Assembly (NCBI RefSeq): GCF_007750395.1
Contig: NZ_CP036281.1
Coordinates: 3,123,001-3,187,000 of the forward strand
Source: Polystyrenella longa
Lineage (GTDB): Bacteria; Planctomycetota; Planctomycetia; Planctomycetales; Planctomycetaceae
Length of the DNA stretch: 64,000 bases
Direction: 5' to 3'
The notes below the pieces were generated by a model, which saw only the letters and a list, made by a program, of their open reading frames with translations, did not search any database and was not told the DNA's origin. This document shows positions 32,649 through 58,438 of this stretch, piece after piece (the first letter of the stretch is position 1; every line of letters starts with the position of its first letter). A program made the position numbers and the translations under genes.

Positions 32649-34283
32649 ATGGCGACAATCGGGGACATTGTGGTAAATCTGGGAGTGGATCGACGTGGAT
32701 TCACCAGCGGGATGGATCAAGCATCGAGCAAGCTCAAGAGTTTCGGAGGCATGGCTAAGTCTGGGCTGGGCATGGCGGCCAAGGGGATCGGAATCGGGAT
32801 GGCAGCAGCGGGAGCGGCCACAGCAGCGGCAGCGGCGGTCATTATCCCGAACGTCAGTAAAGCGATGGATTCAATCGATGAACTGGCGAAGACCTCGGAC
32901 AAGCTCGGGATCGGAATTGAGAATCTAGCCGGGTTACGACACGCAGCCGAGCTGACTGGAACAGCAACCAGCACGCTCGATAACGGTATTCGGAAGATGG
33001 TCAACAACGTGAGCGAGGCAGCTGGCGGGATTGGATCGGCAAAGACAGCACTCGAGGAACTCGGACTGTCAGCGGAGTCATTATCGAAACTTTCCCCTGA
33101 TGAACAGTTCCTAGCGATTTCCGGGGCGATGCAAGGGGTGGAGAACTCAGGCGAACGATTGCGGATGACTCTCGACGTGTTCGGGCGATCTGGTGCCGAT
33201 CTGGTCAACATCCTGAACGGAGGACCGGACGCAATTAAGGCGATGATGGCCGAAGTCGATGAACTCGGGATGTCGGTCAGTCGAATGGATGCGGCGAAAG
33301 TGGAAGCGGCTAATGATGCTTGGACGCGAATGTCTGGGGTGATCGATGGACTATGGAACAAGCTGGCCGTTGAATTGGCTCCTTCTCTGGAAGCTCTGAT
33401 CACTTCGTTCGTCTTATGGGGTACAGAGGGTTCCAATGCTTCCGATCTGATCACAGCAGGAGTAAGAGCCCTTGCGGTCGGGATCGGTGTCACTGTCGAT
33501 ATCATCAACGGACTGACAGGAGTTTGGCAAATGGCTCAAGCGGGAGCATCCAAGGCGCTCGCATGGATTCTGTCAGGAGTCAACAAGCTGGCCGAGGGTA
33601 TTTCCTACCTCGGGGGATTGATCGGGATGGATTTTGACACCTCATTCCTCAAGGACATGGCCGACGAAATGCATAAGCTGGCCGATGCCGATGTAGCGGC
33701 GGCGAATGACAAGTTTCTCGGGGCTCTCTCAGGGGAGTTTACGAAAAGCATCACGAGCAAGTTTGATGAGGTGAACCAGAAGGCCAACGAGACGGCAAAG
33801 CTGATTGCCGATACAGCGGCCAACAACATCAACGCTGTTGATTCAGAAGCAATCGATCTGGCTTTACAGCGAACGCAAGAGCTGGAGAAAGCGGCGCAGT
33901 CGGTATTCGATTCCACCAGGACACCGATGGAGAAATTCGAGAAGGAAGCAGCAAAACTGCAAGAACTGTTTGCAGCCGGTCTGATCGATGAAAATACCTT
34001 AGGCCGGGCTCTGACCGATGCCAAGGAATCAGTATTCAGCACCATCGATGTCGGGGAGGTGAAAGCGACAGCCGACCTTACCCAGAACACAGCCGTTCAG
34101 AAGGGTTCTCAGGAGGCATTTAAGCGACTCATGGAGGCCACCATCGGACCGAAGCAGGACACCGAGCAAGCCAAAGCCCTGAAGGTTCAGGAACGTCAGG
34201 AATCGTTACTTGCTCAAATCAACGCAGCGATTCAGAAGAGTGGCGGCACGGGTGGTCTGACTCTCACAGCGGCCAACTTCTAA
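32649..34283 (+). CDS. Tape-measure-like phage tail protein (lone)
   Basis: 544 residues. N-terminus VVNLGVDRRGFTSGMDQASSKLKSFGG is the typical start of phage tail tape-measure proteins, followed by Gly/Ala-rich hydrophobic stretches (AAKGIGIGMAAAGAATAAAAAVI), then ELAKTSDKLGIGIENLAGLRHAAELTG and DVFGRSGADLVNILNGG. The C-terminal 200 residues are helical and rich in Ala/Glu/Lys. It is short compared with most tape measures and no other tail, capsid or packaging gene is found in the element. Family call firm; why it stands alone is unknown. TCAGGAGAGCC precedes the ATG. Confidence 0.8.
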   Translation: MATIGDIVVNLGVDRRGFTSGMDQASSKLKSFGGMAKSGLGMAAKGIGIGMAAAGAATAAAAAVIIPNVSKAMDSIDELAKTSDKLGIGIENLAGLRHAAELTGTATSTLDNGIRKMVNNVSEAAGGIGSAKTALEELGLSAESLSKLSPDEQFLAISGAMQGVENSGERLRMTLDVFGRSGADLVNILNGGPDAIKAMMAEVDELGMSVSRMDAAKVEAANDAWTRMSGVIDGLWNKLAVELAPSLEALITSFVLWGTEGSNASDLITAGVRALAVGIGVTVDIINGLTGVWQMAQAGASKALAWILSGVNKLAEGISYLGGLIGMDFDTSFLKDMADEMHKLADADVAAANDKFLGALSGEFTKSITSKFDEVNQKANETAKLIADTAANNINAVDSEAIDLALQRTQELEKAAQSVFDSTRTPMEKFEKEAAKLQELFAAGLIDENTLGRALTDAKESVFSTIDVGEVKATADLTQNTAVQKGSQEAFKRLMEATIGPKQDTEQAKALKVQERQESLLAQINAAIQKSGGTGGLTLTAANF

Positions 34284-36955: not shown

Positions 36956-38071
36956 TCACTTCCATGTAAGTTTGTACTCATGTTGACGTATCCCAAAGCG
37001 ATTTTGTTTTAATGCAATCAATGATTCTCCTGGCCCATTATCGGTAATTGTGACGCAGCCAAAGAGATCATGATTGTCTCCGAGTCTAGGATTATCAAGT
37101 TCCCATACTTCGACCTTTAAGGAGCGTTTAAAGCTGTACTGAAGGTTAAGAGTAGCCGGCCTATTAGTTGACATTTTAAATATACGCATCTGCTGTCCAA
37201 ACAAGCGATCTGGATGGTTCACATTGACAGCTTGTCCATCTGACCATACTCGGAGGTGAACTTCGTCGTTCGCGCTAGCTTCCTGTTTGCGTATGCATGT
37301 TAGTGAATCTAGTGTAACCGTATAATTTCCCGTCCATCGTCCTGGATAAAGTTTCGCGATGTGGGATTTATCCACATCTGAAAGCTTTGTATTCATTTCA
37401 ACTTCGAAATCCCCAATAGTTAGGTCATTGGATATCGGATAGATCATAATTGAATTAACGTCGAATGAAGAGAAATTGGTGTTTGTTGCAGAGTGAGTCC
37501 TAAAAATATTGTGATCGACTTTGTCCATATACCAAGGAGGGGTCTGTTTCAAATAAAACTTATACACTTCTGGTTTGTTCCATGGGATATCAGAATCAGG
37601 GCTCTGGTGCTCGTGAATCATACCGAGTGCATGGCCGAACTCGTGCAATGTCGTACGAGCAATTTCAACATCAGGCGTGTTGTCATTAAACCAGCCGAAA
37701 TTCATGGTAGGCTGATTTTGCTGGACACTGCTGGCGTCAGTGCCAACTGTTGACCATGATCCATTATTTGCGATAAAGGCGATTCTTATGTCTGAACGAC
37801 CGTTTTGAATATATTCGAAATTAATATTGGCATATTTTGTCCATTCCTCTGCTGCTTTTATTACTCGTTGTTGCAGGCTGGGTGTCCCCCCAAGAAACAT
37901 GATTTTCAATGTCTGCCCAGGCTGCCATAATTTGGTCGTAGATCCTGCTAATCTTAAACCTACATTGTTGGGGGAAGGATCCAAGGTAATACACGCTTTA
38001 GGATCATCTGCATTACCTGTCAAAGCCAACGAAAAAAGAATTGAAACTGAGATTACTAATCGAAAGATCAT
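36956..38071 (-). CDS. Secreted metzincin-type zinc metalloprotease
   Basis: 371 residues with a signal peptide. The zinc site HEFGHALGMIHEH (143-155) and the Met-turn in SIMIYPI define a metzincin of the astacin/matrixin-like group; IPWN after the third His region fits. A C-terminal domain (about 265-371) ends in VEVWELDNPRLGDNHDLFGCVTI, again like a C2 calcium loop, as in the neighbouring papain-like gene. The ATG at 38071 begins the signal peptide and has AGGAG nine bases upstream; a longer frame to 38179 has neither. Likely secreted; degrades a protein target. Confidence 0.88.
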   Translation of the reverse strand: MIFRLVISVSILFSLALTGNADDPKACITLDPSPNNVGLRLAGSTTKLWQPGQTLKIMFLGGTPSLQQRVIKAAEEWTKYANINFEYIQNGRSDIRIAFIANNGSWSTVGTDASSVQQNQPTMNFGWFNDNTPDVEIARTTLHEFGHALGMIHEHQSPDSDIPWNKPEVYKFYLKQTPPWYMDKVDHNIFRTHSATNTNFSSFDVNSIMIYPISNDLTIGDFEVEMNTKLSDVDKSHIAKLYPGRWTGNYTVTLDSLTCIRKQEASANDEVHLRVWSDGQAVNVNHPDRLFGQQMRIFKMSTNRPATLNLQYSFKRSLKVEVWELDNPRLGDNHDLFGCVTITDNGPGESLIALKQNRFGIRQHEYKLTWK

Positions 38072-38210
38072 ATTGAGCATCTCCTGTATGAATTGAGAGA
38101 AGATTCTGTTTGCTGTTGCGACAGAATGAAGTCGAACAAGGTTTTGAGGATCATCGTTGCTTGCAAAAGCAGAAGTCATAGTTACGCTTCAAATGGATAC
38201 AACCATTTAG

Positions 38211-39911
38211 TTACTCAGATAAAATATATCGAGTCGTCACTGGCAGGTGATCAGAACCGAAACTGCTTGTACCTGGCGAAGCTGGTGTGAACCGATCTTC
38301 TCCGGTCACGTAAATACAATCAATTGGGCCGGTTCCCGCGTATTGGTCACTCGCGATGTATGTCTCGATACCGAGATCGTGGGTGAGACTCTTCATTTGC
38401 AAGTCGCCAATCAGGCCACCTGAAAAGATCGCGTGAGTGTCATCATAGCCATCCCCCGAGTCGTCGGTTAAAGATGAACCGTTCTTTCCGCTATCAGTTT
38501 CCCCAACGTTGAAGTCGCCCGCGACCAATACAGAGAAATCGGGATATTTCGCTCGATCTCGATTTACTTGAGTCGCAATAGCAGCGGCGACAATCTCACG
38601 TTTCTGGGCATTCTTATGGTCGCCTTGTCCATCATTTCCGTTAGATGACTTCAGGTGAGTGACATTTATAATCAACTTCAATTCGTCGATACGAACGCGA
38701 AGAAAACCGCGACTGGTTGAAACGTCTGCCAGCCCGTCTAATTCAGGATAGTTCATTTCGAATTCGAATGGCTCCTCGGGATTGTTTTCGTTGTTGTCAG
38801 GTGAAGGATCGTTCTCAACGACAGAATCGAAGGGGAAACGACTAATCACGCCAACTTCAAATGAACTATACCGACCACGATCATTCTGTTCAAAGTCAGA
38901 ACAGCAGAAGTAATAGCCAGTCAGTCCCATATAGTCTCTGATTCTTTCAACCTGACGTATTGAACTTACTTCCTGAATCATCACGATGTCGGGATTAATG
39001 TCACCGCCGAAGTCTAAGAAATCTTCTTCGCGGCGATTAACGTCGGCCAATGAAAATATTTCTCGAGCGTTCCAAGTAACAATCTTGATGCTGTCGCTTT
39101 CCTCGTCTAAGGCACTCTCAGTCGCCCCTCTCATCGACAGCAGGCCGGAAACAGGTTGAGTTGGGGTATCAACCTCAAACACTCTAAGGACCAAGGACGA
39201 GTCGAGTACAAAAGGATTCTCGTTTCCCTGAACCAATTCGATTTGTTTGGTTCTCTCGATCTCTTCATCGTCAGCAGGATCCAGGAAGTGCCACGCTATA
39301 AGAGTGTTGAGCTGCGAGTTGAACCATTGCTTGTCCAAGTCTCGATCGCCATAGATCGCGTAGATATAGAACATGGCCCGTGCAACGTTTCCCTTGTGGG
39401 CTTCCCTTGGCTCGAAAGCACTACTGGTCGATTCACTGTATCGACCAATGTCTCCAGTGGGGCTCTCTTCAGATGCAGATGACAACCACCATTTACGGGT
39501 ATCATGGTCAGGAATCTCGGCAAATGCATTGTTGCTCCTCGCACTGTTGACCTGACTGTATGTCGCAAACAGGTGATGAATATCAGACTTAATCTGATGC
39601 TTGTCACTCGCATGCTTAAACTTCGACTGCGCCCAAGTGTGTTCGGTATTCACGATGTTGTGATTCGGAATCCCATTCGTTTGATACTTCGCACCAGTAT
39701 AAACCAGGGTGACCTCGCCATTATCGTTGTCGATGCTCTCAAACATTTCCTCTCGGGCATTTCGGTAGCTCAGATTAACCGTAGGTGTGAAGTCTTGACG
39801 CAGTAAATGAATCAATTCCGTTCCACTCTTATCCGGGTGAATCTCTTCAGCCAGTCCGATAAGGGAGATGGATAAAAGCGCAGCGATAACCGTAATAATC
39901 CGGAGATGCAT
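38211..39911 (-). CDS. Secreted two-nuclease fusion (endonuclease I plus EEP)
   Basis: 566 residues with a signal peptide (about 1-21). Residues 25-250 match the EndA/endonuclease I family: NTEHTWAQSKF and SDIHHLFATYSQVNSARSN carry the active His and Asn, and KGNVARAMFYIYAIYGDR follows. Residues 274-566 match the endonuclease/exonuclease/phosphatase fold (VTWNAREIF, VMIQEV, THLKSSNG, VAGDFNVGE, GSDHLPV). Both sets of active residues look intact. Fusions of this kind occur in some marine bacteria. Probably degrades DNA outside the cell or in competitors; the metal is likely magnesium. Located in the cargo block. Confidence 0.9.
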   Translation of the reverse strand: MHLRIITVIAALLSISLIGLAEEIHPDKSGTELIHLLRQDFTPTVNLSYRNAREEMFESIDNDNGEVTLVYTGAKYQTNGIPNHNIVNTEHTWAQSKFKHASDKHQIKSDIHHLFATYSQVNSARSNNAFAEIPDHDTRKWWLSSASEESPTGDIGRYSESTSSAFEPREAHKGNVARAMFYIYAIYGDRDLDKQWFNSQLNTLIAWHFLDPADDEEIERTKQIELVQGNENPFVLDSSLVLRVFEVDTPTQPVSGLLSMRGATESALDEESDSIKIVTWNAREIFSLADVNRREEDFLDFGGDINPDIVMIQEVSSIRQVERIRDYMGLTGYYFCCSDFEQNDRGRYSSFEVGVISRFPFDSVVENDPSPDNNENNPEEPFEFEMNYPELDGLADVSTSRGFLRVRIDELKLIINVTHLKSSNGNDGQGDHKNAQKREIVAAAIATQVNRDRAKYPDFSVLVAGDFNVGETDSGKNGSSLTDDSGDGYDDTHAIFSGGLIGDLQMKSLTHDLGIETYIASDQYAGTGPIDCIYVTGEDRFTPASPGTSSFGSDHLPVTTRYILSE

Positions 39912-44200: not shown

Positions 44201-45406
44201 ATGCGCGAAGATATCAAAGTCTATGTCATTAAAAAGGCATCGAAAAAGTTCCTGTATATGAAGTATGTCGATCCAGAAACGAATCGAGAGATCACACGAT
44301 CAACGAAAACGAACCGCATGAAGGAAGCCATCAGGGCTGCTGGCCGATGGGAATCGGAATTGCGTAGCGGTCAGTACAAAGGCACATGCCGAACGAAATG
44401 GGAGGATTTCCGCGAACGGTATGAAGTGGAGCATGTTTCAGGGTTGTCGCCTGAAACGGACGCGAAGATCAGTGCAGTTTTCAACATGGTCGAACAGATA
44501 CTTAACCCGAAACGATTGGCCGAACTGACAGCGGCGAACATCAGCCGTTATCAATCAGAACTGCGACACCTCGGGCGATCAGAGCAGACCATCAAAAGCC
44601 ACACCACTCACCTCAAGGCTGCGCTCAATTGGGCGGTTAGTGTTGAACTGTTGCCAAAGGCGCCGAAGATCAGTCTTCCATCGAGAGCGAAAGGGGCAAC
44701 CATGATGAAGGGGAGACCGATCACAGGCGAGGAATTCGAGAGGATGATTGCCTGCACGGAGAGCATCGTCAAATCATCCGAGAAGGCCAGTGAATGGAGA
44801 TTGCTGCTCAATGGTATCTGGCATTCGGGGCTCAGACTGGGCGAAGCTCTGAACCTTACGTGGGACAATCCCGACAAACTGCAAATAGAGTTTATTCGAG
44901 ATCGGGTGATGATCCTGATTCCAGCGGAACTGGAGAAAGGGAACCGAGACCGGAGATTGCCGACCATTCCTGCATTCGCTGAATTGATTTCCTCAGTTCC
45001 CGAATCAGAGCGGACTGGTTACGTATTCAACCCACCACCAATGCGACACACGGAATCAGGGAGACTGGTCGATGAACAGGTGGGCCGCATTATTACCAAG
45101 ATCGGAAAGAAGGCGGGAGTTAAGGTCTCAGAGAAAGGGGGCAAAGTGAAGTATGCCAGCGCTCACGACCTGAGACGATCATTTGCAGCCCGGTTGGCTC
45201 TCAAAGTGCCTGCTCAACAGCTTATGCAGATGATGCGACACGAAAGCATCGAAACGACTCTCAAGTTTTATGTGGGCCAGGATGCCGATAATCTGTCTGA
45301 TTTGGTCTATTCTGCCTTCGAGAATGGGCACTCTCGGGACTTTTTACGGGACCCTGCCCCAATTGAGGCCAAAAGCCCACCTCAGAGGGTTGATGTAAAG
45401 GGTTAA
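44201..45406 (+). CDS. Tyrosine recombinase (element integrase)
   Basis: 401 residues. An N-terminal arm-binding region, a core-binding domain (about 60-165: ISRYQSELRHLGRSEQTIKSHTTHLKAALNWAV) and the catalytic domain. Catalytic residues: Arg in HSGLRLGEALNL, Lys in the following beta hairpin, HDLRRSFAARL (His/Arg), His in RHESIETTLKFYVG and the nucleophile Tyr just after (KFYV). It integrates and, with a directionality factor, excises the element at tRNA-Leu. The stop is 22 bases before the tRNA, and the gene's 3' end carries the promoter that now serves the tRNA. Confidence 0.95.
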   Translation: MREDIKVYVIKKASKKFLYMKYVDPETNREITRSTKTNRMKEAIRAAGRWESELRSGQYKGTCRTKWEDFRERYEVEHVSGLSPETDAKISAVFNMVEQILNPKRLAELTAANISRYQSELRHLGRSEQTIKSHTTHLKAALNWAVSVELLPKAPKISLPSRAKGATMMKGRPITGEEFERMIACTESIVKSSEKASEWRLLLNGIWHSGLRLGEALNLTWDNPDKLQIEFIRDRVMILIPAELEKGNRDRRLPTIPAFAELISSVPESERTGYVFNPPPMRHTESGRLVDEQVGRIITKIGKKAGVKVSEKGGKVKYASAHDLRRSFAARLALKVPAQQLMQMMRHESIETTLKFYVGQDADNLSDLVYSAFENGHSRDFLRDPAPIEAKSPPQRVDVKG

Positions 45407-45419
45407 GGCTACCTACAAT
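45390..45419 (+). promoter_or_regulatory. Element-borne promoter of tRNA-Leu
   Basis: TTGATG (45390-45395), 18-bp spacer, TACAAT (45414-45419), ending nine bases before the mature 5' end of the tRNA. It overlaps the integrase 3' end. Confidence 0.55.
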
Positions 45420-45427
45420 ACGACATA

Positions 45428-45511
<84 letters not shown>

Positions 45512-45524
45512 CTTATTACTTCAT

Positions 45525-45560
45525 AAGGACTTACGTCATATGGGCGTAGGTCCTTTTTTC
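45525..45560 (+). terminator. Terminator after tRNA-Leu
   Basis: AAGGACTTACG (45525-45535) pairs with CGTAGGTCCTT (45545-45555) with one T-G, followed by TTTTC. Confidence 0.85.
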
Positions 45561-45696
45561 GTTTCCAAGCGTAACTCGGAACAAAGTCGGAACAAGTTGG
45601 CATCCATAGGGCCTACACATTGCTCGTCGAAGAACGGTCTGCGGCATATACTTTCTTGTCCAAACGCAATGGGGCGTGCGGCACCGGGAATCAAGT

Positions 45697-46968
45697 ATGG
45701 CCAGCCTTCACAAAGACCGTAAATCGTCCAATTTCAGTATTCGCTTTCGTTACGAAGGGAGGAATATCAATCGGTCCCTTAGGACTTCGGATAAACGAAA
45801 AGCGGCTGGAATCTGCTCGCGTATTGAAGAGACACTACTATTGCTGGAGGGCGGTAGGATTGAAATTCCTGCGAGTACTGAGCCTCTTGACTTTATTTTC
45901 TCCGACGGCAAGAAGACCGGGAAAACAGTCTCGACAAAAACAAAACATTGGGGACTGACCGAATTCTGTGCCATTTACGAGCAACGGCTCCCTCAAGGAC
46001 ATAAAGAAGCTTCAACACTGCATGGAGAGCGGATTCACTTCAATCATCTCCAGAGGCATTTAGGCCCGAACAGAAAGGTGCAATTTATCACCAAAGCAAA
46101 CTTGCAGGAGTACGTCGCGAAGCGTTTACAGGATACTCATCACGGAAAACCAATTCAACCAGATACCGTTCGCAAAGAATTGGTCACTTTTCGGATGCTT
46201 TGGAACTGGGGAGTTCAAGAAGATCTTCTTACGGGACCTTCTCCCACTAAGCATGTTGTGTTCCCCCTGACAGACGAGAAGCCCCCCTTTATGACGTGCC
46301 AGGAAATAGAACGTATTATTGCCCGAGGAGGACTTACCGAAGCAGAGGAGAGACGGCTTTGGGAATCAGTTTACCTGGAGACCTCTGAGGTTGGTGAGGT
46401 TTTAGAGTACATCCGAAATAACGCTCGCTACCCTTTCATTTATCCGATGATGGTATTCGTGGCTCATACCTCAGCCCGCCGCAGCGAAATGGTGAGATCA
46501 CTAATTGAAGATATCGACTTTCGATCTCGCACGGTTGTGCTGCGTGAGAAAAAGAAAAGCCGAACAAAGGCAATGACATTTCGCCGCGTGGATATGAGCC
46601 CACTGCTTTATCGCGTCCTGCAGGAATGGATTCAGAATCATCCTGGGGGCCAGCAGACGTTCTGCCAGTTACGCGGGTTTCAACAAGCGTTACCGCTTAC
46701 CGTCTGGCAAGCTCATTATCATCTAAAACAAACCGTGTCTAACAGCGATTGGAGCTTTTTAACGGGATTCCATATCTTTCGACACTCGTTCGCATCCAAC
46801 CTGGCCGCTGCTGAGGTGGATCAACGGGTTATTGACGAATTCATGGGACATCAAACCGAAGAAATGAGACGCCGCTACCGACATCTGTTTCCAGCCCAGA
46901 GGAGAGCGGCGATTGAGTCCATCTTTGGCGAAGAGGACGATAGGAATCAAGGTTCGCTTGCCAGTTAA
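45697..46968 (+). CDS. Second tyrosine recombinase
   Basis: 423 residues from the ATG at 45697. SAM-like core-binding part around 90-180, then the catalytic domain: Arg in AHTSARRSEMVRSL, Lys in REKKKSRTKA, His-x-x-Arg in FHIFRHSFASNL, His in MGHQTEEMRRRYRHL and Tyr in the same stretch. It is unrelated in detail to the first integrase. Its place directly after tRNA-Leu suggests a second element inserted at the 3' side of the same tRNA, but no matching repeat was found to the right. The gene appears intact. Confidence 0.88.
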   Translation: MASLHKDRKSSNFSIRFRYEGRNINRSLRTSDKRKAAGICSRIEETLLLLEGGRIEIPASTEPLDFIFSDGKKTGKTVSTKTKHWGLTEFCAIYEQRLPQGHKEASTLHGERIHFNHLQRHLGPNRKVQFITKANLQEYVAKRLQDTHHGKPIQPDTVRKELVTFRMLWNWGVQEDLLTGPSPTKHVVFPLTDEKPPFMTCQEIERIIARGGLTEAEERRLWESVYLETSEVGEVLEYIRNNARYPFIYPMMVFVAHTSARRSEMVRSLIEDIDFRSRTVVLREKKKSRTKAMTFRRVDMSPLLYRVLQEWIQNHPGGQQTFCQLRGFQQALPLTVWQAHYHLKQTVSNSDWSFLTGFHIFRHSFASNLAAAEVDQRVIDEFMGHQTEEMRRRYRHLFPAQRRAAIESIFGEEDDRNQGSLAS

Positions 46969-47122: not shown

Positions 47123-48029
47123 ATGGAACCAAGAAATCACACTCACCTCTCGCTCGAAGAGCGTCGTCAAATTCATCAATTGCTTAGCAGGAAGATGCCT
47201 GTGGTTGCTATTGCGCAAGAATTGGGGCGTCATCGCTCGACGATATTTCGAGAAGTTCAACGCAACAGCTAATTCGATGAAGATAAAATTTACAACGGTT
47301 AATTTCATGTGAATGCCCATGAATTTGCATCCCGGCGCCGACATACGCTTCGTAAACTGTTGCAACGTGGAGATTTACGAGCATTTGTAATCAGCAAGCT
47401 AAAGATAGCCTGGTCGCCGGAACAAATTGCGGGCTTTTTAAGGCGTCTTTCCCTCCCCAGTTCTTTTCACGTGTCATGAAACGATTTATGCTTTCATTTA
47501 CAGCCGTGAAGGACGTATGTTGCGACTTTATAAATATCTTTGCCGGAGGTTCATTAATAGACGCAAACGTGGCCGTAGAACACCCAGGCACCTTCGAGGT
47601 GTACCGAAACGTCTTTTTATTCCCAATCGTCCTGATCAAGTTGGAGATAGGCGGAACTTTGGTCATTGGGAAGGTGATCTGGTGATTTTTCGACGCGAAC
47701 ATGGCAATGTGACATCACTGGTCGAACGCAAAAGTAGATTCACGGTTTTAATTAAGAACCAGAATCGAAAATCAGCAGTTGTTGTTGGCCAAATCAAAGA
47801 CCACCTAACGTCCCTGCCCCAATTATCGCGGCGTTCAGTAACCTTTGATCGCGGATCGGGATTTATGGGTTGGCGGGCTCTGAATCCGCATCTGGGTCTT
47901 GATAGCTATTATTGCGACGCTCGTTCTCCTTGGCAAAAAGGAACAAACGAAAATACGAATGGCAGAATTAGGAGGTTTTTGCCCAATGAGACGAATTGGC
48001 ATGCCTTTAAAAATCTGAACCAGTTGTAA
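47123..48029 (+). pseudogene. Broken IS30-family transposase
   Basis: Starts MEPRNHTHLSLEERRQIHQLL with an HTH (VVAIAQELGRHRSTIFREV), typical of IS30, but a TAA at 47271 and frame changes follow. The rest continues in other frames, with the DDE region intact in 47517-48029: HWEGDLV (first Asp), TFDRGSGF (second Asp region) and ARSPWQKGTNENTNGRIRRFLP (Glu). An inactive remnant. Confidence 0.85.
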
Positions 48030-48183: not shown

Positions 48184-50109
48184 TTACTCTACGCTGCGTT
48201 GCCCTAGCTCACAAGGCATATCCGATATGGCATTCCACTCGTCGACGTCGTCAGAAGTAAACCTATAAACGTAAATGGAAGCACCAACACAATCCATAGG
48301 AACTCTAGATTCTACCCATTTACAAAACTTCGTTTGTTTGACTGAACATGCTGGATACCGGTCTCCCGTTTCATATGAAGTTGCACACGCCAAATTCAGG
48401 CATGTAACACTAATTGCGAGATACCCCACTTTCGGGCAAGTTGGAACGCGTGCGAAACGTCCGACTGACTCAGTGGGCATAAACGTGCTATTCAGCCTAA
48501 GTTCTGAGCTTAAACCAGGATAGGGCCAAGGACATGGTGAATATACGGCAACATGAAGCGAGGCGTTGAACGATTTTTTGGCATACCACCTATCTAATAT
48601 TAAAATATCTTGTCCCCAATCGTTCTCAGAATAGATGAACTTTCTATGCATTCCTCCCACTTCACAGCTGACGCTTGAAAAGTAGCCTAAGTAGCTAGGA
48701 TGCCATGGAAGAACTGACAGCGGAATGCCCAACAGTAACGTCGCCCCAAAGCATTTACGCCAAACCCTGCCTTCATTTCGGTTGGATGCCATTATAACGC
48801 CTGTGAGAACGGCTACACACGGAAAAAGCGGCAATAAATACCGAGATGCGTTTATCGAGTTATTGTAATTTACCGCCCCTGTAACGAGTAAAGAAAACAA
48901 TACGAACAGCCAAACCTTACTGAACTCATACCTAGATCGCCACAAAGAAACTACTGCCATTATCATCAAAATCCAATATACCTCCGGCAATTTCGCGGCC
49001 ATCGTAATGACGTAGTACATTGGCCATCCCGACCTCCGTACTTGTCCATTATAATAATTCTCCCAGCCGGATTCAAAGTCGGCAAGTTGCTTGTCCAGTC
49101 CGTAGAAATATGGTTCCGGAAGTAGCCCTAATGTCCAGTTCGCGAAAAATGGTGGACCCAGCGATACAATGGATTGGATATCTGTCAGATGAGTCGACTG
49201 ATACGCCACCTCTTGTCTGAATTTCACGGGTGGGAGCGATAGATAGCCGGCAGAAATGACCAGCACGCTAACTAACATAATTCCAATAAGCACTAAGGAC
49301 ACTTCCCCAATTGTACGAATAACCTTTCGGCATAGACACACTTGGAATATAGGAGAGTACCCGGCATCGCCAACTTCACTTGATGGCAGCTCATTGCCCT
49401 TGAGTCCATAACATCGTAAACAAGCGATCGCAATTTCATAAGCAGCATTTATTATGAGCACCACATACAATAAAGTTAATGAAAATTTTGTAATCTGTGC
49501 CACTCCGATGACCAAACCTGTCCATAGCACCCGTAATAAGAGGGGCTTTTCGAACACGTGGCGTATAGAGTCGATACAAACAATTGCCATTAGGGCCGAG
49601 GGCATATCGGGGGATGCAATCGCTGCATAAGACAACGCAAATGGATTAAAGCACCACATTAATGAACCGACAACGTTTGCATAGCCGCCAAATATTCGTT
49701 GTGAAATGCAAGAAATTACTACCGCTGCGATGATATAACAACCTACTGACACCATGCGAGCCATTGTGAACATCCAATATACGGATTCTCCATTCGACTC
49801 CAGAAACACTTCCGCCAATAGAACTTCCGTACGCCTGCTGGAGTGCTCAAGCAACAAGTTTTCTGGGACTGACAAACCCTTAGCATAAGCCGGAAGGCTC
49901 ATCAATAGCTTGGCGAAGGGCGGATTGTGCGCATACGTATGCCATGAACCATGCTCCCAATAGCTTAATCCCGCACATACGTGCGCCGCCTCGTTATGCG
50001 TGACAGATGTTGACATGGCCGCACTAATGGCAGTAAGTGCACCATAAATTACTATGCCGGCAGTTATTATCCATGATCGCCTTGATGTCGAGCCATTCAC
50101 TTGCAACAC
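48184..50109 (-). CDS. Membrane glycosyltransferase (family 39 / PMT-like)
   Basis: 641 residues with about ten or more membrane spans. The first luminal loop has an acidic residue in THNEAAHVCAGLSYWEHG, placed like the catalytic Asp/Glu of PMT-type GT39/ArnT proteins; ENDWGQDILILDRWYAKK near the C-terminus is a mark of this planctomycete group. Likely transfers a sugar from a polyprenyl-phosphate donor to a glycan or protein outside the membrane. The gene is intact but flanked on both sides by IS remnants. Substrate unknown. Confidence 0.8.
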   Translation of the reverse strand: MLQVNGSTSRRSWIITAGIVIYGALTAISAAMSTSVTHNEAAHVCAGLSYWEHGSWHTYAHNPPFAKLLMSLPAYAKGLSVPENLLLEHSSRRTEVLLAEVFLESNGESVYWMFTMARMVSVGCYIIAAVVISCISQRIFGGYANVVGSLMWCFNPFALSYAAIASPDMPSALMAIVCIDSIRHVFEKPLLLRVLWTGLVIGVAQITKFSLTLLYVVLIINAAYEIAIACLRCYGLKGNELPSSEVGDAGYSPIFQVCLCRKVIRTIGEVSLVLIGIMLVSVLVISAGYLSLPPVKFRQEVAYQSTHLTDIQSIVSLGPPFFANWTLGLLPEPYFYGLDKQLADFESGWENYYNGQVRRSGWPMYYVITMAAKLPEVYWILMIMAVVSLWRSRYEFSKVWLFVLFSLLVTGAVNYNNSINASRYLLPLFPCVAVLTGVIMASNRNEGRVWRKCFGATLLLGIPLSVLPWHPSYLGYFSSVSCEVGGMHRKFIYSENDWGQDILILDRWYAKKSFNASLHVAVYSPCPWPYPGLSSELRLNSTFMPTESVGRFARVPTCPKVGYLAISVTCLNLACATSYETGDRYPACSVKQTKFCKWVESRVPMDCVGASIYVYRFTSDDVDEWNAISDMPCELGQRSVE

Positions 50110-50236
50110 TCCAGTCGAAGAAAATCTGAGAACAACATGCTATGAACTTAAAGGCAAAGCAGTTGCAAAACCATGAACCTACTGAACAGTTTGGCCTGTT
50201 GATTGCATTGTCATGTCTTCGAAAGGAGACTCAACA

Positions 50237-50919
50237 ATGGAATTGACGCTGGAGCTGTACCCCTCACTCGAACGGTACCTTGCAGCGTCCAGGACGGACT
50301 GTGTTACGGAATTCACTGATGAGCCATGGCTTTTGATCGAAGACCTCTTTCCTTGGGAAGGCCCGACTCGCTTGGGAGCGACTCGTAGAACAACTCCAGT
50401 TGGATGGCAAGATCGACTGTTCGGAAGGCATGGCAGACGGCGCATTGGCCCCTGCAAAAAAAAAGGGGGGAATGCGTTGGTCCCACCAAGTGCGGCAAGG
50501 AGACCAAGATCATGTTGCTCGTCGATGGTCGTCAAGGAACGCCCCTGAGTGCGGAGGTTCATAGCGCATCGCCTGCTGAAGAGAAGTTGATTGAACCGCT
50601 GCTCGATCATTCCGTGATCCCTTATCGTGATCCGACTCGCCTGCTCTAGGATAAAGCTGCCGACAGTGATGCGCTGCGACACCGGCTTCAGTGTTGGCGA
50701 GGAATTGAACTGATTTTGCCGCATAAGAAGAACAGAAAGAAGAAGGCGATCCAGGACGGTCGAACCCTACGCCGCTATCGCCGACGCTGGAAAATCGAAC
50801 GCACCATCGGCTGGTTGAAGACCTACCGGCGCATCGTGGTTCGCTACGAATACTAAGCTCATCTGTTCCACGGCTTCGTGCAACTCGCTTGTCTGTTCAC
50901 TATACTTAAGAGGTTTTGA
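50237..50919 (+). pseudogene. Broken IS5-family transposase
   Basis: The N-terminal frame reads EFTDEPWLLIEDLFPWEGPTR, as in IS5/IS1031 transposases; the frame changes at about 50400-50550, then continues GKETKIMLLVDGRQGTPLS and [13 protein letters not shown], and ends [22 protein letters not shown] with a stop in the middle. AAAGGAGACTCAACA precedes the first ATG. Several disablements; inactive. Confidence 0.85.
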
Positions 50920-51177: not shown

Positions 51178-52278
51178 TTATTTTACAATTCCTGACACTG
51201 GGATTACCAAGTCGGGTAGATCCCCCTCGAAGTCAATGGTCACATCTGCTGAAAAACGCCCAGTCTCCGATGGGGCGGTAATGGTAACCGAAATATTCTC
51301 ATTATTAGACTCATCATTTACATTTACCACGTCATCCGGAACAGCCTTGATTGAGTCAATATTGGGGTACTTGGCGTCCTTATCATGCACAATCAAAGAA
51401 ATCTCACGAGTCAAGATCTGACCGGGAGATACGGCCCCTACGAAAAGGAGCCTAACCCTAGGTTTTACAACATGGAGTATATCAATTCTAGCAGGTAATT
51501 TCGTCGGAGATAGATTGTTATTCCATTTAAGTAAGAGGTGAGACTGGTGCATCCCAAGAGGCATGGGATCTTTGGCTGCCAACTTGATTTCGATTGTATC
51601 TCTCCATGACTGCTCTGTTTCATCTGGATGGCGAACAAAGCGGGCCGACTTTTTGCTGACCGACACCGGCTTAAATATTCCAAAATCTGATTTGTCTTGG
51701 ATTAGTTCTAGTGGTTCTTCATCCTCCTTCCTCAAATATTGGGCGGTGACCGCAGTTTCGATAGATTCCCCTAATACTGCTTTTTCCAGAATTTCTTCAG
51801 GCCCAATATCAAGCAGTTTTGAAAAATTCATGTTCATAACGAGATTGACAGGAATACCCGGGCTGGAAGTAACCTGAGCGATCGCCGAAAACTCTCCGAA
51901 TTTTCGCTTGTTAACTGCCATGACTACATCTATCGGTTTATTTGGTAGGATGGTTTTCCCTGCTAACTCAGGTTTGACTGTTACCGCCCCACAACACATG
52001 TGTTTTACAGACTTAATTTCAACAGGCTCCGTTCCTATAACTGAGATTGTAAAACTACCTTCAACATAGTCACTGGATACCTCGCCCATCTCTAGTGTTT
52101 CCGGAAGAACCTTTAATCCACTTGTGACCTGTGTTGCTGTACGAGTCTCTATAAAAGTGTCATTTGCGCCACTATCAGCCAACGGCGCCAAGTCATACGG
52201 TAAATCCGATTCACTAGCACACGACATCATCATAAGACTAGTTGTCAACAGCACTAAATATTGTACAGTTTTCCGCAT
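51178..52278 (-). CDS. DUF1573 lipoprotein
   Basis: 366 residues with signal peptide and lipobox (MMMSC). Residues about 50-150 match DUF1573 (VLPETLEMGEVSSDYVEGSFTISVIGTEPVEIKSVKHMCCGAVTV), an immunoglobulin-like beta domain found in many surface proteins of planctomycetes and Bacteroidetes; at least one more beta domain follows. The ATG at 52278 begins the lipoprotein signal. It is the last gene of the co-oriented cluster starting at 58438, 255 bases after the C39-like gene. Likely an envelope partner of that system. Confidence 0.8.
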   Translation of the reverse strand: MRKTVQYLVLLTTSLMMMSCASESDLPYDLAPLADSGANDTFIETRTATQVTSGLKVLPETLEMGEVSSDYVEGSFTISVIGTEPVEIKSVKHMCCGAVTVKPELAGKTILPNKPIDVVMAVNKRKFGEFSAIAQVTSSPGIPVNLVMNMNFSKLLDIGPEEILEKAVLGESIETAVTAQYLRKEDEEPLELIQDKSDFGIFKPVSVSKKSARFVRHPDETEQSWRDTIEIKLAAKDPMPLGMHQSHLLLKWNNNLSPTKLPARIDILHVVKPRVRLLFVGAVSPGQILTREISLIVHDKDAKYPNIDSIKAVPDDVVNVNDESNNENISVTITAPSETGRFSADVTIDFEGDLPDLVIPVSGIVK

Positions 52279-52533
52279 CCTGTTTCTTCTTTCACTTTGT
52301 TTAGAAGTGGTCCTGAAACCCTCTGATGGGTTGTACTGAACCTTGTATTGTAGATTCGAAAACAGCCACAACCGGGTTTTAGTGAGTCATTATTCCTGCG
52401 AGAGCTATCCAGAGACACTGGCAGGTAGCACCGGTGCCGCAACCAACCGTAGAACAGAATATTTATGCATTGGAAATCGACGTCTTCATCGTTTGCACTC
52501 CACTCATCTCACTGACGCACTTGCGGTATGTCT

Positions 52534-53139
52534 TCATACGTAAACCTTATTTTTTTCTCGTCTCCAAGACCTAAATCCGAAATACAGCGATGCCACCAAA
52601 CAACATCCAAATAGTACATACAATCCCGTCACGTTCGCAAACGAAGGTCTTGTTGTTAGCAACTCTCCTTTCCAATACCTCTGCAACTTGCTTAACGGCA
52701 TGACGATGTTCGGCTTGAGTTTTGTAGCGTCTGCTAACACTGCTCTTCCGTCGTCGTCTAAATGTTTTAACACTACGAAATGACCAGCGTCCGTCTGCCC
52801 GCTAGCATCCTGGATAAATATAATACTCGGAGTCGGAAGATTCCGTGCGTCGATAGTTGATTCCACGCGATATGAGACGGTTGGAACAGAAAATCTTCTG
52901 AGTACGGTTGCCAAATCAGCAAATGACAGCGTCATTAGTTCTGTTGCTTCATGATCTCGAAGGAATTCTTTCTCCACATCTGAATATGTCACGTCTTGCC
53001 CGTTTAGCTTTAAAAGTAACGTAGTGCTTGCCACGCCACAGGGCACCTTTTTATTGGCCAATGTGTCGGTGTTGTCACTGGCGAACATTACGCAAGGCGT
53101 AATGAATGACAGAACGATAAATACACTGCAACGAAACAT
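52534..53139 (-). CDS. Exported, membrane-anchored C39-like cysteine peptidase
   Basis: 201 residues. Signal peptide (about 1-20), then a C39 peptidase core: VPCGVASTTLLLKLNG with C34, AGHFVVLKH with H120, and VLADAT with D137, in the family order. The Gln normally six residues before the Cys (oxyanion hole) is not there, so activity may be altered. A C-terminal transmembrane helix (about 172-190) is followed by a basic tail. C39 enzymes normally sit on ABC exporters in the cytoplasm and cut after Gly-Gly; this one would face outside. It starts 12 bases after the 479-residue gene's stop, so the two form an operon. Confidence 0.75.
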   Translation of the reverse strand: MFRCSVFIVLSFITPCVMFASDNTDTLANKKVPCGVASTTLLLKLNGQDVTYSDVEKEFLRDHEATELMTLSFADLATVLRRFSVPTVSYRVESTIDARNLPTPSIIFIQDASGQTDAGHFVVLKHLDDDGRAVLADATKLKPNIVMPLSKLQRYWKGELLTTRPSFANVTGLYVLFGCCLVASLYFGFRSWRREKNKVYV

Positions 53140-53151
53140 TACAGAATGACC

Positions 53152-54591
53152 TCACTTCGCATTTCTTTTCTTTTTTCGGACCTGTGATACATAATAAAAG
53201 CCGATGGCTAATACGGCTAACAGATTGGCAGCTACAACCCACAACGTAGGGTTATTGAGTAGCGTTGCTTTACTTGAATTACCCTTAGATTTATCGGCGA
53301 AATCGTCAACCACATCCTCAATTTCACCGATAACCCGAGATTCCGCTTTCGTCTTGTCATAGACAGCCGTCGAATCGGGAAATTCCATTGCATAATTTTC
53401 GAGTGCTCGTTCTTTAACTTCCGACACACTCCATTTCGCAACCTCTGAAGGTACTTGCGCAACTGTCTTTATAGTCTTGGTTCGGATCAGTTCTTCAATG
53501 GAGGTAGGTACGTGCCCCTCAATGCCAGGGTCATTAATCCTATAAGTGATGGTTCCAGATATTGGGTAAAACTTTCCCTCGGAAACCTCTTTTATCTCTA
53601 TGTCGTGCATACTCTCTCTGCTTAATTCTCCATCGTGAGAATTTTCAACAACGACCGGAATTCCGTCAACGATATTCCGGGAAAATCGCTCTATTCGAAT
53701 TGGCAAGAAACCCTTTGTGGTATCTATATAAGCCGTTTGTCCACTGAATAGCTGCAAACGAGTCCCATACTCTTCCCGTTGACCAGCAGTGAGAAACGCC
53801 TCAACAGGCTTCTCCTCTGAATACTCCATAACAATAATATCAGGAGACAAGCCTTCTAAAAGCGGACCATTTGTTATGATTTTGTAACTATCTCGATTAT
53901 GCAGAAAAAATTGGTCTATTTCATGAGCGGGACCACCGTTGTGCGGTGTTATATATCCAAATGGGGGCAGTGAAATGTTCGCCACAGGAGGGTAATTCAC
54001 AAGTATTGTTGCGGTCTGTCCACCATAGCTATCCACTCCGTGCCACATTCGAAAGAGATCGTCATTGCCGGGCGAATATGCAAGAACTTGAATATCGGAA
54101 TGGGTGGTGAGGAGATTGCCTGGAACAGGGGACGCGATTTTGCTGATTGAAAGGGGACCTGTGTCCTGTTTCGGAAGGCAGAGCACAAAACCGTTCCAGT
54201 CCGTTGAAAATCCTAAATAGATCGTTCTTACTCCTCGATTTTTCGGTGACTCCAGCATCGACTTATAACTGGATATCCTGCTGATTAACTGATTTCTTAT
54301 ACTGCCGTCGGAACTATTTGTCAGTTCTTGTTCCGTTTGGTGTATCGCGCGCTCAATCATGGTAAACCATGCCTCTTTAAACTCCCTCGAAGTACTCCAG
54401 CACAGGGTGAGGCCCTCAAATGATTTGCGATTCCCATCAAATCCGGCGATCACATCCTCTGGCGTCCATTCCTCAAAACGGTCGTCAGCATATAGCGAAG
54501 AAGCCGCAAGTATGGATAATGTCGTAATTAAAGCTATCGTCCGCGCAGAGTGAGCGGGACAGTAAGAAATGAACAACGCAATGGCATGCAT
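53152..54591 (-). CDS. Large exported protein with C-terminal membrane anchor
   Basis: 479 residues. Signal peptide (about 15-36), a long beta-rich ectodomain, and a C-terminal transmembrane helix (about 450-468) with a Lys/Arg tail. A segment GQTAYIDTTKGFLPIRIERFSR resembles LolA/LolB-like or outer-membrane lipoprotein carrier sequences of planctomycetes, but the match is weak. It shares the signal-plus-C-terminal-anchor layout with the C39-like neighbour, suggesting they sit together in the membrane. Function unknown. Confidence 0.7.
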   Translation of the reverse strand: MHAIALFISYCPAHSARTIALITTLSILAASSLYADDRFEEWTPEDVIAGFDGNRKSFEGLTLCWSTSREFKEAWFTMIERAIHQTEQELTNSSDGSIRNQLISRISSYKSMLESPKNRGVRTIYLGFSTDWNGFVLCLPKQDTGPLSISKIASPVPGNLLTTHSDIQVLAYSPGNDDLFRMWHGVDSYGGQTATILVNYPPVANISLPPFGYITPHNGGPAHEIDQFFLHNRDSYKIITNGPLLEGLSPDIIVMEYSEEKPVEAFLTAGQREEYGTRLQLFSGQTAYIDTTKGFLPIRIERFSRNIVDGIPVVVENSHDGELSRESMHDIEIKEVSEGKFYPISGTITYRINDPGIEGHVPTSIEELIRTKTIKTVAQVPSEVAKWSVSEVKERALENYAMEFPDSTAVYDKTKAESRVIGEIEDVVDDFADKSKGNSSKATLLNNPTLWVVAANLLAVLAIGFYYVSQVRKKKRNAK

Positions 54592-54805
54592 GTCTAGAGT
54601 TCTTTGAAAGAGCGAGATTCGAGGGTTAAAGAAAAAACCGAGAGGGGAGTAGCGCTGTCAGAACCCTACTTGGTCCCCTCTTGGATGATCGGCAATTCTC
54701 TTCGCGGACCACTTTCCCACGTCGTCTGCAATAGAGCTTCTTCCCAACAGCCCAACGTAGAATACCATATCAAACGCAGTTGCCAGCAATGTAAATGACG
54801 TACGT

Positions 54806-55264
54806 TCAGATGCAAGTGTTGCACCAAGCACTGCCGCCGCTTACGCATGCTGCCGGAGTGGTGCAGTCGTGCGCCAGATTTTGCCTCGGTGGACAAGGCA
54901 CAGGCGTCATTGAACTCCCGCAGGCAGCCGCGGCGTTAGGATCACAACTACCAAAGACTGTGTCAGTACAATCCCTGTGATTGCCTGTCGCAGAACATCC
55001 GTCCCGTGCCGTGGAGGTAAACTTGCAATTCAATCCAGCCGATATTGGAACGCAGTTTGGCTGAATGCAAGTTGGGCAAGCCACCAGAGGCCGAATGCAT
55101 TGGTCTGTGTAGAAGTCATCTTGCCCTCCTACCGTCGACAGTTGCTCCTCATGTGACATTGGAGTGAGTGCTCTATCTATTGACGCTACGTAGCCGAGCG
55201 AGCATAACGAGAGCACAACACCTAATGCATAGGGAAACAAATTAAACAAGCAAGCGATGTTCAT
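54806..55264 (-). CDS. Secreted Cys-rich protein with Gly-Gly motif
   Basis: 152 residues. A signal peptide (about 1-30) is followed by MSHEEQLSTVGG (36-47), resembling a double-glycine leader, then 105 residues with 14 cysteines (56 to 151) and no other globular pattern. The even number and spacing suggest several disulfides. ATG 55264 has AAGGA upstream; a start at 55360 is less likely. Encoded between the DUF1559-FGE fusion and the anchored-ectodomain gene. By inference, it is a substrate of the C39-like peptidase. No family recognised. Confidence 0.7.
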   Translation of the reverse strand: MNIACLFNLFPYALGVVLSLCSLGYVASIDRALTPMSHEEQLSTVGGQDDFYTDQCIRPLVACPTCIQPNCVPISAGLNCKFTSTARDGCSATGNHRDCTDTVFGSCDPNAAAACGSSMTPVPCPPRQNLAHDCTTPAACVSGGSAWCNTCI

Positions 55265-55363
55265 AGTGGAAGTCCTTTTAAAAAATACTATTGAAATAGT
55301 TACCAAATACCATGCCACAAGTCCTTGAACAAATGGGGTCGAATTGTGGTTGCGAGGCATTTA

Positions 55364-57355
55364 TTACTTTCGGGTAATGTCTACATAGCCATTTTTATTA
55401 GCAGTAAGGTCACAGACTATTCTGAATCCAATAAACGGACTGCCTTTCCATGGGTCGTTAGCCACATACACCTTACAGTATGGCCCCGTCGCGACCCAAT
55501 ACCATCCGCGGATAACATGAAGATATCCTGTTGCTGGCCCACGGGGATTATCGACGGGAGAGTTAGCGTAGTAATCGCGACGGCGATAATCTGATACCCA
55601 TTCAAATACATTTCCGGTCATATCATAGACGCCAAACCTGTTGGCAGGATATGTCCCAACTGGTACGGTAGTAATCTGGTCGGCTAGCTTGTTATCCCGG
55701 CTACCAATTTCACCAGTCTCATTAGTTTTTATCCATTCCGCATGCTGCTCAATCTCTTCGGTGTCTGCCGCCCGGCAAGCCCATTCCCATTCGGACTCGG
55801 TTGGCAAGCGGTAAACTCGCCCGTATTTTTTTTCTTCCGGAAGAGCTGAGAGCAGATTACAAAAGCGAACGGCATCATCCCATGAAACATTTTCTACAGG
55901 GCATTCCGATGTGTCTTCTAATGTCACTCTTTCTCGGTATTCTCCGGTTCCGGAATGGGCGCTCGGGTTATTCCCCGCTATTTGTTCGAATTGCTCTTGT
56001 GTCACCTCGTGAAGCCCCAAATAAAAAGGGTGTGTTAGGCGTACTTTATGGGGGACGGCATCATCGGGATACGGAAATTCATTGCCTTTATTGGGCAGCC
56101 CCATCAAAAATTCACCATCTGGCACCGCGACGAACTTCATGCCGATTGAATTTTCGATATAAACTGAGGCAGGCTCGACCTCAGACGGGGCTGAAGCTTG
56201 AGAAACAGAAACTGCTGATTCCGCTTCCCCTGGTTCGTATAGACCCGCGAGTTCATCCTCAAACGTTTCCGAATTGAAGATGGCTTCCGGCGCTTCACGT
56301 GAGTGCATGACGTGCCATAGAGTTTTCTCAACCGTGTCCGACACAAACCGCACGGAGCCATCGAGCAGCATGGCATTGACACCACCCGAATGCATACTGC
56401 GGGCAGTTGCCTGGGCATTTTCGTTGCAATAGTCGCACGCCCCCATTTTCTTTCCGTCTATAAACTCTGCACCTAGCTTTTTGTATAACGCGGGCGCCCC
56501 CAATATGTCGTCCTCACCCGAATCGCTTTCGACATAGTTTGGACCTCCATCATCACCGACGACTCCATGCCCCCAGGTAATGCTTCCGCCAATCTGACCA
56601 AGTGCCCACACGCCGCGGGGATCGATCGGATCAAGGCCCGCACGAATTTCTTCGAGGGCTACAAATGTGGACGCACCATTCACGATATCAGATCGAGAAA
56701 AACTTTTATTGATCCCCGCTAAGCCATTTCCCCACCATTGAAACTCGCGAGTTCCCTCGTCGTAAACATAACGATTTTCCGTTGGACCTGGGTTGGAAAG
56801 CGTTCCAAACTCGGCGGGAACATATTCACTCCCACCATTGATCGCGTAATTGCCGCGAGCAAAGTAGACGAGCGATCCGTCCGGCGTTTCAAGTTCGTAT
56901 TGGTTGTCGGGGCGATTATACGTATCACTGGGACAACTAAGTGCTGGGAATTCCGATTCCCGAGCCGCAGCATTTTCCGGTGCGATGGTTGGTAAATCCG
57001 AGCGGAACGAAAAGCTGTCGCCATCCCCCAGATAAGGCAGCAGCATCTGCACCCAATTATCTCGCGTCACTTCTACTTTAGTAGGAAACTCGTGAGAGAG
57101 GAGGTTTGGCAGATCCAGCCCCTCGGAACCCCAATGAGCCGCAGGGGGATAAACCCTGTGCGTGTCATGGTACGACTCTAACGCAACACCTAATTGCGAC
57201 AAGTTGTATTCACACGTCTGAAGTCGTGACATTTCCTGCAAGCGAGCCAACGCAGGCACGCCGACCAGAAACAGAATATTTCCAATGACGATCAAGAGTA
57301 TCCACTCTTTGATGCTCCATCGGAAGTTCCAAGTTGTTGATGACTCCTCAGACAT
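55364..57355 (-). CDS. DUF1559 protein fused to inactive FGE-like domain
   Basis: 663 residues. An N-terminal hydrophobic helix (about 16-37) lacks the usual prepilin FTLVE cleavage site. A DUF1559 domain follows (about 38-345: CEYNLSQLGVALESYHDTHRVYPPA, ARSMHSGGVNAMLLDGSVRFVSD). A linker leads to an FGE-sulfatase fold (about 400-655: IGMKFVAVPDGEFLMG, CPVENVSWDDAVRFCNLLS, RLPTESEWEWACRA, VYDMTGNVFEWVSDY). The C-terminal block reads RGWYWVATGPYC, so only one of the two catalytic cysteines remains; it is probably a binding or structural domain. A fusion of these two families is notable. Part of the cluster; 51 bases after the upstream gene. Confidence 0.85.
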   Translation of the reverse strand: MSEESSTTWNFRWSIKEWILLIVIGNILFLVGVPALARLQEMSRLQTCEYNLSQLGVALESYHDTHRVYPPAAHWGSEGLDLPNLLSHEFPTKVEVTRDNWVQMLLPYLGDGDSFSFRSDLPTIAPENAAARESEFPALSCPSDTYNRPDNQYELETPDGSLVYFARGNYAINGGSEYVPAEFGTLSNPGPTENRYVYDEGTREFQWWGNGLAGINKSFSRSDIVNGASTFVALEEIRAGLDPIDPRGVWALGQIGGSITWGHGVVGDDGGPNYVESDSGEDDILGAPALYKKLGAEFIDGKKMGACDYCNENAQATARSMHSGGVNAMLLDGSVRFVSDTVEKTLWHVMHSREAPEAIFNSETFEDELAGLYEPGEAESAVSVSQASAPSEVEPASVYIENSIGMKFVAVPDGEFLMGLPNKGNEFPYPDDAVPHKVRLTHPFYLGLHEVTQEQFEQIAGNNPSAHSGTGEYRERVTLEDTSECPVENVSWDDAVRFCNLLSALPEEKKYGRVYRLPTESEWEWACRAADTEEIEQHAEWIKTNETGEIGSRDNKLADQITTVPVGTYPANRFGVYDMTGNVFEWVSDYRRRDYYANSPVDNPRGPATGYLHVIRGWYWVATGPYCKVYVANDPWKGSPFIGFRIVCDLTANKNGYVDITRK

Positions 57356-57406
57356 TACTTTCGCCTTGTCTTAATTTCCGAGCCCAAAATTCAATGTCAA
57401 TCTTCA

Positions 57407-58438
57407 TCAGTCGATTGAGACGCTAACCTTACCTTGATACGTCACGAGACTTACAAATGTCCTGATACTCGCCTTCTCACCCAGAAAGTGAACAGAGCCA
57501 TCACACAACAGGACATTTACCCCTCCGTTATGGAAGCTATACACGCCACTTTCTGCGGCATTCGTGCAGTTAATAGCACACACATCTCCACCGGCTCCCG
57601 AATAACCAATGAACCAGTTCTCCGCATTGAGCACATCCGCCCAGCCCCCCCCTTTTGTTTTACTACCAGTATTCTTGCCGTACTCATAGAGATCGGGGCG
57701 ACCGGCAATCTCCCACATCATAGCCGTATTGCTTAACCCATCGGTAATATTACTAAATGACAAGTCCGGATGATTATTAGACAGCACCCCTTCTGGCAGA
57801 CTAGCCTCTTCGGGAGCAGCAAACGGTCGTAACAGGTGCCCGATTCCAGAACTGGGCCCATAATCAGTAGCCCCCGTTTTGAATTCAATATCGATACCAA
57901 GATCGCTCCACGTATCAGTATGCACCTTCTCGACACGGGGCGTCGATGGGCACAGAAAAACAGCAACCGGTCGCGCGACGATGCTTTGATTGTCGGCGGT
58001 GTAATTCGGCAATCCCAAGGACGTCAAATCGACTGGAGCGAACATCGGTTGAGAAAAATCAATGGCTTCGTAGAGATTGTTATTTTCAAGAAATGGAAGC
58101 AGCCGCTCGGCGTAGGTATGAATATTGACGTCATCCACGTCACCAATAGACGTTTGCAGAAATACCGGCAAAACCGACCCTGTTTCCTTACGGGTCGCCA
58201 GATAAACGGGAGGGAGCTGCCGTTCAAGATCGTGATAGGAATGAAAGGCGATTCCGATTTGCCTCAAGTTATTGATGCATGTGGCACGCCGGGCACTTTC
58301 ACGCGTGGACTGCACGGCGGGGATCAGCAGAGAAAGCAAAATAGTGACAACGGAGATCACCACGACCAGCTCGACCAGAGAGAAAGCTGACCTTGTCTGG
58401 CGTTGTAATGAAAATAGAAAAGAGGATTTAACTCGCAT
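57407..58438 (-). CDS. DUF1559 prepilin-like protein
   Basis: 343 residues. Type IV pilin-like N-terminus RSAFSLVELVVVISVVTILLSLLIPAVQSTRESARRATCINNLRQIGIAF (cut between Ala and Phe expected, then methylation), followed by DUF1559 with the C-terminal YSFHNGGVNVLLCDGSVHFLGE. Probably exported by a type II/IV-type machine and displayed or used in pseudopilus-like structures; planctomycetes have dozens of such genes. First gene of the cluster; an AT-rich, roughly 200-base region separates it from the divergent next gene. Confidence 0.92.
   Translation of the reverse strand: MRVKSSFLFSLQRQTRSAFSLVELVVVISVVTILLSLLIPAVQSTRESARRATCINNLRQIGIAFHSYHDLERQLPPVYLATRKETGSVLPVFLQTSIGDVDDVNIHTYAERLLPFLENNNLYEAIDFSQPMFAPVDLTSLGLPNYTADNQSIVARPVAVFLCPSTPRVEKVHTDTWSDLGIDIEFKTGATDYGPSSGIGHLLRPFAAPEEASLPEGVLSNNHPDLSFSNITDGLSNTAMMWEIAGRPDLYEYGKNTGSKTKGGGWADVLNAENWFIGYSGAGGDVCAINCTNAAESGVYSFHNGGVNVLLCDGSVHFLGEKASIRTFVSLVTYQGKVSVSID

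Follow-up and report, generated by a model that had tools for sequence, protein, structure and literature searches.

An exported C39 peptidase recurs beside exported cysteine-rich proteins with predicted double-glycine leaders in Planctomycetota

The window, the 64-kb stretch of DNA analyzed here, carries six co-oriented genes on the minus strand at 51178-58438, and all six were present as the original prediction had listed them (ORF translations, Pfam/NCBIfam). These genes, together with the putative leader and a further gene lying beyond the coordinates of that prediction, are as follows.

57407-58438, minus strand: DUF1559 (SBP_bac_10) prepilin-like protein, 343 aa (Pfam/NCBIfam, E=8e-46)
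55364-57355, minus strand: DUF1559-FGE-sulfatase fusion in a single ORF, 663 aa (Pfam, E=1e-42)
54806-55264, minus strand: Cys-rich protein, the predicted substrate, 152 aa, with translation begun at Met-33 of ORF 54806-55360
55124-55159, minus strand: codons of the putative double-glycine leader, MSHEEQLSTVGG by translation, with the cut predicted after Gly-47
53152-54591, minus strand: membrane-anchored ectodomain protein, 479 aa, with a signal peptide and a C-terminal TM, assigned by profile to the LolA/RseB superfamily
52534-53139, minus strand: exported C39 peptidase with a C-terminal anchor, 201 aa, C34/H120/D137 (Pfam PF03412)
51178-52278, minus strand: DUF1573 lipoprotein with the lipobox MRKTVQYLVLLTTSLMMMSCASE, 366 aa from an internal Met (Pfam, E=2.7e-4, under the curated gathering cut-off)
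48184-50109, minus strand: GT-C/PMT_2-like membrane glycosyltransferase (weak Pfam PMT_2 match, E=0.0013)

The DUF1559 protein encoded at 57407-58438 has N_methyl (type IV prepilin) and HX9DG C-terminal motifs (Pfam/NCBIfam), and the glycosyltransferase at 48184-50109 is likely an accessory partner. The Cys-rich protein and the ectodomain protein of the window showed no convincing family match in Pfam or NCBIfam. No ABC-ATPase signature motif was found in the ORFs of the 64-kb window, in line with the earlier statement that no ABC exporter lies nearby. Met-33 is the likely start of the Cys-rich protein, and translation from this residue reproduced the claimed order of a hydrophobic Sec-type export signal, then MSHEEQLSTVGG ending at Gly-47, and then 14 Cys. 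The putative leader comprises 12 residues with the register M-12, S-11, E-8, G-2, and G-1, a moderate agreement with the double-glycine pattern (3/5 canonical positions; shuffle p=0.014).

The peptidase, originally described as C39-like, matched PF03412 well above the Pfam cut-off (E=8.5e-10; 39 bits vs. 22), with C34, H120, and D137 aligning with the catalytic columns of the C39 family. Its AF2 model (pLDDT 82) matched the peptidase domains of ComA, PCAT1, and LahT (Z 15-16; VIA), which were also the top Foldseek matches, and the C39 family profile likewise had its best matches in the ComA, LahT, and PCAT1 peptidase domains, with ComA best among solved structures (E about 1e-20). The signal peptide and C-terminal TM of the window enzyme, as well as the prepilin or lipobox-like motifs that lie inside fused members where C39 joins its partner, are consistent with a placement of the C39 domain on the extracytosolic side.

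Close orthologues of the window C39 and Cys-rich protein were found neither in 59 relatives nor in a scan of genome contigs, and a phylum-wide search with a long C39-DUF1573 query matched the window alone. Weak matches to the window C39 were present in three relatives (G019, G039, and G041), each within the same kind of gene set. With two profiles built from these relatives (A1 and A2), C39 genes, ABC exporters included, were detected in 81 out of 392 genomes of the phylum and in 63 out of 170 genomes of the family. We read 78 regions around the matches, picked mainly for an open frame unlike that of an ABC exporter, in addition to the first six regions, and took as our working definition of a system C39 that an ectodomain, DUF1573, or MauE gene lies at most 1.5 kb away on the same strand or is fused to it. 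The profile searches yielded 68 such genes in 66 loci from about 41 planctomycete genomes. Among 82 examined C39 genes, the neighbors were the ectodomain (59), DUF1573 (40, 16 of them fused), DUF1559 (39, within 6 kb), GT-C (26), and MauE (18), for families as delimited by models that were seeded in these loci and extended iteratively. The loci were picked by the C39 search, and genomes with a substrate but no C39 fall outside this survey. Named MAG contigs carrying the MauE type were planctomycetes, save one short contig labeled Nitrospira. The observed gene set is a recurrent system, in which two cassette types can be distinguished: type A has the DUF1573 lipoprotein, often fused to C39, and type B has MauE together with a rhodanese domain fused to C39. 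The DUF1559-FGE fusion, which the original prediction had listed among the genes of the unit, is probably an occasional neighbor rather than a core part, because FGE homologues occur in few other loci (L095 and L148; weakly L096 and L154).

The catalytic residues were conserved across system members (Cys, 62/63; His, 65/68; Asp, 58/68). In canonical C39 enzymes, the oxyanion hole is formed by a Gln at position -6 relative to the catalytic Cys; this position shows no Gln consensus among system members and is Ala in the window C39, and the Gln is retained in other exported C39s of Planctomycetota. One C39-like domain (L012, 7862-9784, minus strand), in which Ala replaces the catalytic Cys, adjoins an intact C39 gene, which suggests a non-catalytic paralogue. 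This degenerate member, the missing oxyanion Gln, and the fold shared by the window C39 and the C39-like domain of HlyB would agree with a reading in which the exported C39 binds the leader without cutting it, as a chaperone or receptor, leaving any cutting to another protease. HlyB-type domains have lost the catalytic Cys, unlike nearly all system members, which retain Cys, His, and Asp, and we consider such a binding role unlikely compared with proteolysis by C39 itself. The exported C39s with the -6 Gln (L138-L140, L145, L147, and L150) were considered as system members and set aside, as they have no LolA, DUF1573, or MauE neighbors and group with ABC exporters (97/79), apart from the system genes, in a tree whose deep branches are poorly resolved. 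They constitute a second class of exported C39 that may be FapD-like. The MauE-type C39s fit one origin in the same tree.

The original prediction had proposed that the C39-like enzyme matures the Cys-rich protein outside the membrane, and the pairing of the two genes was found to extend well beyond the window. Substrates were sought without reference to the leader, as small ORFs that have an export signal and 4 or more Cys and do not overlap other assigned genes. Such an exported Cys-rich ORF lay within 4.5 kb of C39 on the same strand in 53/68 cases, compared with 11/68 for the opposite strand. Candidates were then scored at five positions against the literature consensus LSxxELxxIxG[GAS], with residue shuffles and opposite-strand candidates as controls. 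A score of at least 4/5 was reached by 18 same-strand candidates, as against 0.5 expected from shuffles and 0 opposite-strand candidates, a strong pattern but an inexact probability because related loci are non-independent. Examples of the canonical register include LSLDQLQAVTGG, VSDQEIEVITGG, and VLTNTEMQRVLGG, and one leader matched the NCBIfam RiPP leader model CCRG-2, under the cut-off of that model and independently of the consensus scoring. The double-glycine register and its G-[GAS] site thus recur when conservation is judged at the family level, the window substrate itself having no close homologue among those searched. The full register is a feature of type A (DUF1573 or ectodomain). 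In type B (MauE, C39-rhodanese), the leaders are shorter and keep little beyond V-x-G-[GA], and G-R, G-Q, or other residues stand at the predicted cut site in some loci. The export signal precedes the leader, which thus lies away from the extreme N-terminus, and the Cys-rich cores of about 60-150 aa, tandem paralogues in some loci, showed no convincing family match in Pfam. In one locus (L014, 6449-6935, plus strand), the substrate appears to be divided between two reading frames, with LSATEESRLIGGFCKCC in one and the Cys-rich remainder in the other, and may therefore be frameshifted.

The short, weakly constrained sites of type B and the 15/68 system C39 genes with no detected Cys-rich neighbor raise the question of whether the Gly-Gly is incidental, with the Cys-rich proteins cut by signal peptidase alone and C39 directed at DUF1559, DUF1573, or the ectodomain, for example. 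The canonical register, which far exceeds both the shuffle and the strand controls, argues against such a coincidence, as does a single ORF (L062, 7366-8712, minus strand) that joins a TPR region, C39, a C-terminal LSRQQMQAIRGG, and a Cys-rich tail, so that we hold an incidental Gly-Gly to be improbable. Read from its sequence, the L062 ORF is a natural enzyme-substrate fusion of C39 with a canonical leader; a signal peptide was looked for in this ORF and none was seen.

The anchored ectodomain, a genuine component of the window as claimed, is the most constant C39 neighbor elsewhere (59/82), mostly within about 100 bp. Its family profile matched outer membrane lipoprotein-sorting proteins (9tp6, E=2e-8; 3bk5, E=6e-6) and, weakly, MucB, and by these profile matches the family belongs to the LolA/RseB superfamily. 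The AF2 model of the window ectodomain was poor (pLDDT 46), with no Foldseek match below E=0.001. Gene fusions connect several of the other partners. C39 is fused to DUF1573 in 16 loci, where the joint contains a lipobox-like motif inside the protein; to DUF1559 in four genes (L109 and L132-L134), where a TM and a prepilin motif inside the protein separate the two domains; and to rhodanese in type B loci. MauE is fused to DUF1559 in L160, L161, and L173. These joints agree with an outward orientation of both C39 and DUF1559, and the presence of MauE and rhodanese suggests, from what is known of these families, that the Cys-rich product undergoes thiol or disulfide chemistry.

By sequence, the system combines a pre-pro-mature layout of the Cys-rich proteins, their recurrence beside an exported, anchored C39, and conserved Cys, His, and Asp in that enzyme. 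Our preferred reading, which we consider probable, is that the Cys-rich proteins are Sec-exported pre-pro-peptides whose double-glycine leader would be cut extracytosolically by a membrane-anchored C39 that is not coupled to an ABC exporter. The extracytosolic maturation originally proposed is supported in this respect by co-occurrence, register, and triad, and the cut and its position stand as predictions. The precursor would consist of a Sec-type signal (pre), the double-glycine leader (pro), and the Cys-rich region (mature). Sec would carry it across the membrane to the outer side, where disulfides could form, possibly with the help of MauE and rhodanese in type B; the anchored C39 would then recognize the hydrophobic and acidic leader, and a cut after Gly-Gly (or Gly-Ala/Ser) would release the Cys-rich protein. 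A role in holding the precursor or the product, or in handing either on, is probable for the LolA-like ectodomain, and the DUF1559 pilin-like proteins, as well as GT-C glycosyltransferases in some loci, may act later in display or modification. The mature product might serve in antagonism, in signaling, or as a surface structure.

C39 peptidases are placed with ABC exporters in a survey of papain-like proteinases, with double-glycine leaders cut during translocation (PMC10318531). The system described here shares with peptidase-containing ABC transporters (ComA, PCAT1, LahT/AMS) the fold (Z about 16), the Cys/His/Asp residues, and leaders in the LSxxELxxIxGG register. However, its C39 is not fused to ABC transmembrane or ATPase domains (201 aa in the window), and no ABC exporter accompanies it. 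Export signals are present on the enzyme as well as on the substrate, a C-terminal TM anchors the enzyme, and the -6 Gln is not conserved. The substrates resemble double-glycine leader peptides (class II bacteriocins, microcins, and RiPPs including CCRG-2) in register, in the Gly-Gly/Gly-Ala site, in small Cys-rich cores, and in the tandem paralogues of some loci, but the leader is preceded by a Sec-type signal and the Cys-rich cores are longer (about 60-150 aa). The ectodomain family, which shares with the LolA/LolB/RseB-MucB superfamily its profile matches to lipoprotein-sorting proteins and weakly to MucB, differs in having a C-terminal TM anchor and in being encoded beside C39.

The closest precedent for an exported enzyme is FapD of the Pseudomonas Fap amyloid system, a periplasmic Sec-exported C39 on whose active-site Cys FapC secretion depends; its target and cut site have not been established, and it has been proposed to process the outer membrane export pore component (PMC5557850). 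Like the system C39s, FapD is extracytoplasmic and works without an ABC exporter, whereas the present system co-encodes a canonical leader and has different partner genes. By analogy with the Cys-dependent secretion of FapC (PMC5557850), C39 might process an export pore component in the outer membrane, with the Cys-rich protein as the fiber subunit. We regard this as very improbable: no Fap-like pore gene was noticed among the listed genes of the loci, the system C39s branch apart from ABC exporters and the -6-Gln exported C39s (in a tree with weak deep branches), and canonical C39 sites are absent from Fap proteins (PMC5557850). Neither a FapA-F pore nor amyloid subunits were seen among the genes listed.

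A search of the open-access literature, with subscription papers outside its reach, found no description of this cassette. The co-occurrence across a phylum of an exported C39 and an obvious exported candidate substrate of the double-glycine type makes extracytoplasmic C39 specificity directly testable, and it offers candidate roles for planctomycete proteins that to our knowledge are uncharacterized, namely those with DUF1559 or DUF1573 and the anchored LolA-like family. A broader scenario, which we put forward only tentatively and hold to be rather doubtful, is a planctomycete-specific pathway in which diversifying, Sec-exported, disulfide-rich proteins would be tailored wholly outside the cytosol, through oxidation linked to MauE/rhodanese or DUF1573, the C39 cut, GT-C glycosylation, and carriage or display by LolA-like and DUF1559 proteins.

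The surroundings of the window locus fit an accessory, mobile neighborhood, as two phage-type integrases and an rve-type transposase (44201-46968 and 47517-48029) adjoin the cassette region. Overlapping short ORFs at 50213-50649 (plus strand), between the GT-C gene and DUF1573, look like DDE transposase remnants (Pfam DDE_Tnp_1, E=0.003, under the cut-off). Further away, a 544-aa protein of tape-measure-like appearance with no Pfam match (32649-34283, plus strand) lies in a possible phage-like stretch. At 36956-39911 (minus strand), an astacin/matrixin-type metalloprotease gene adjoins a gene fusing Endonuclease I with an endonuclease/exonuclease/phosphatase domain, and both proteins appear by eye to have N-terminal signals.
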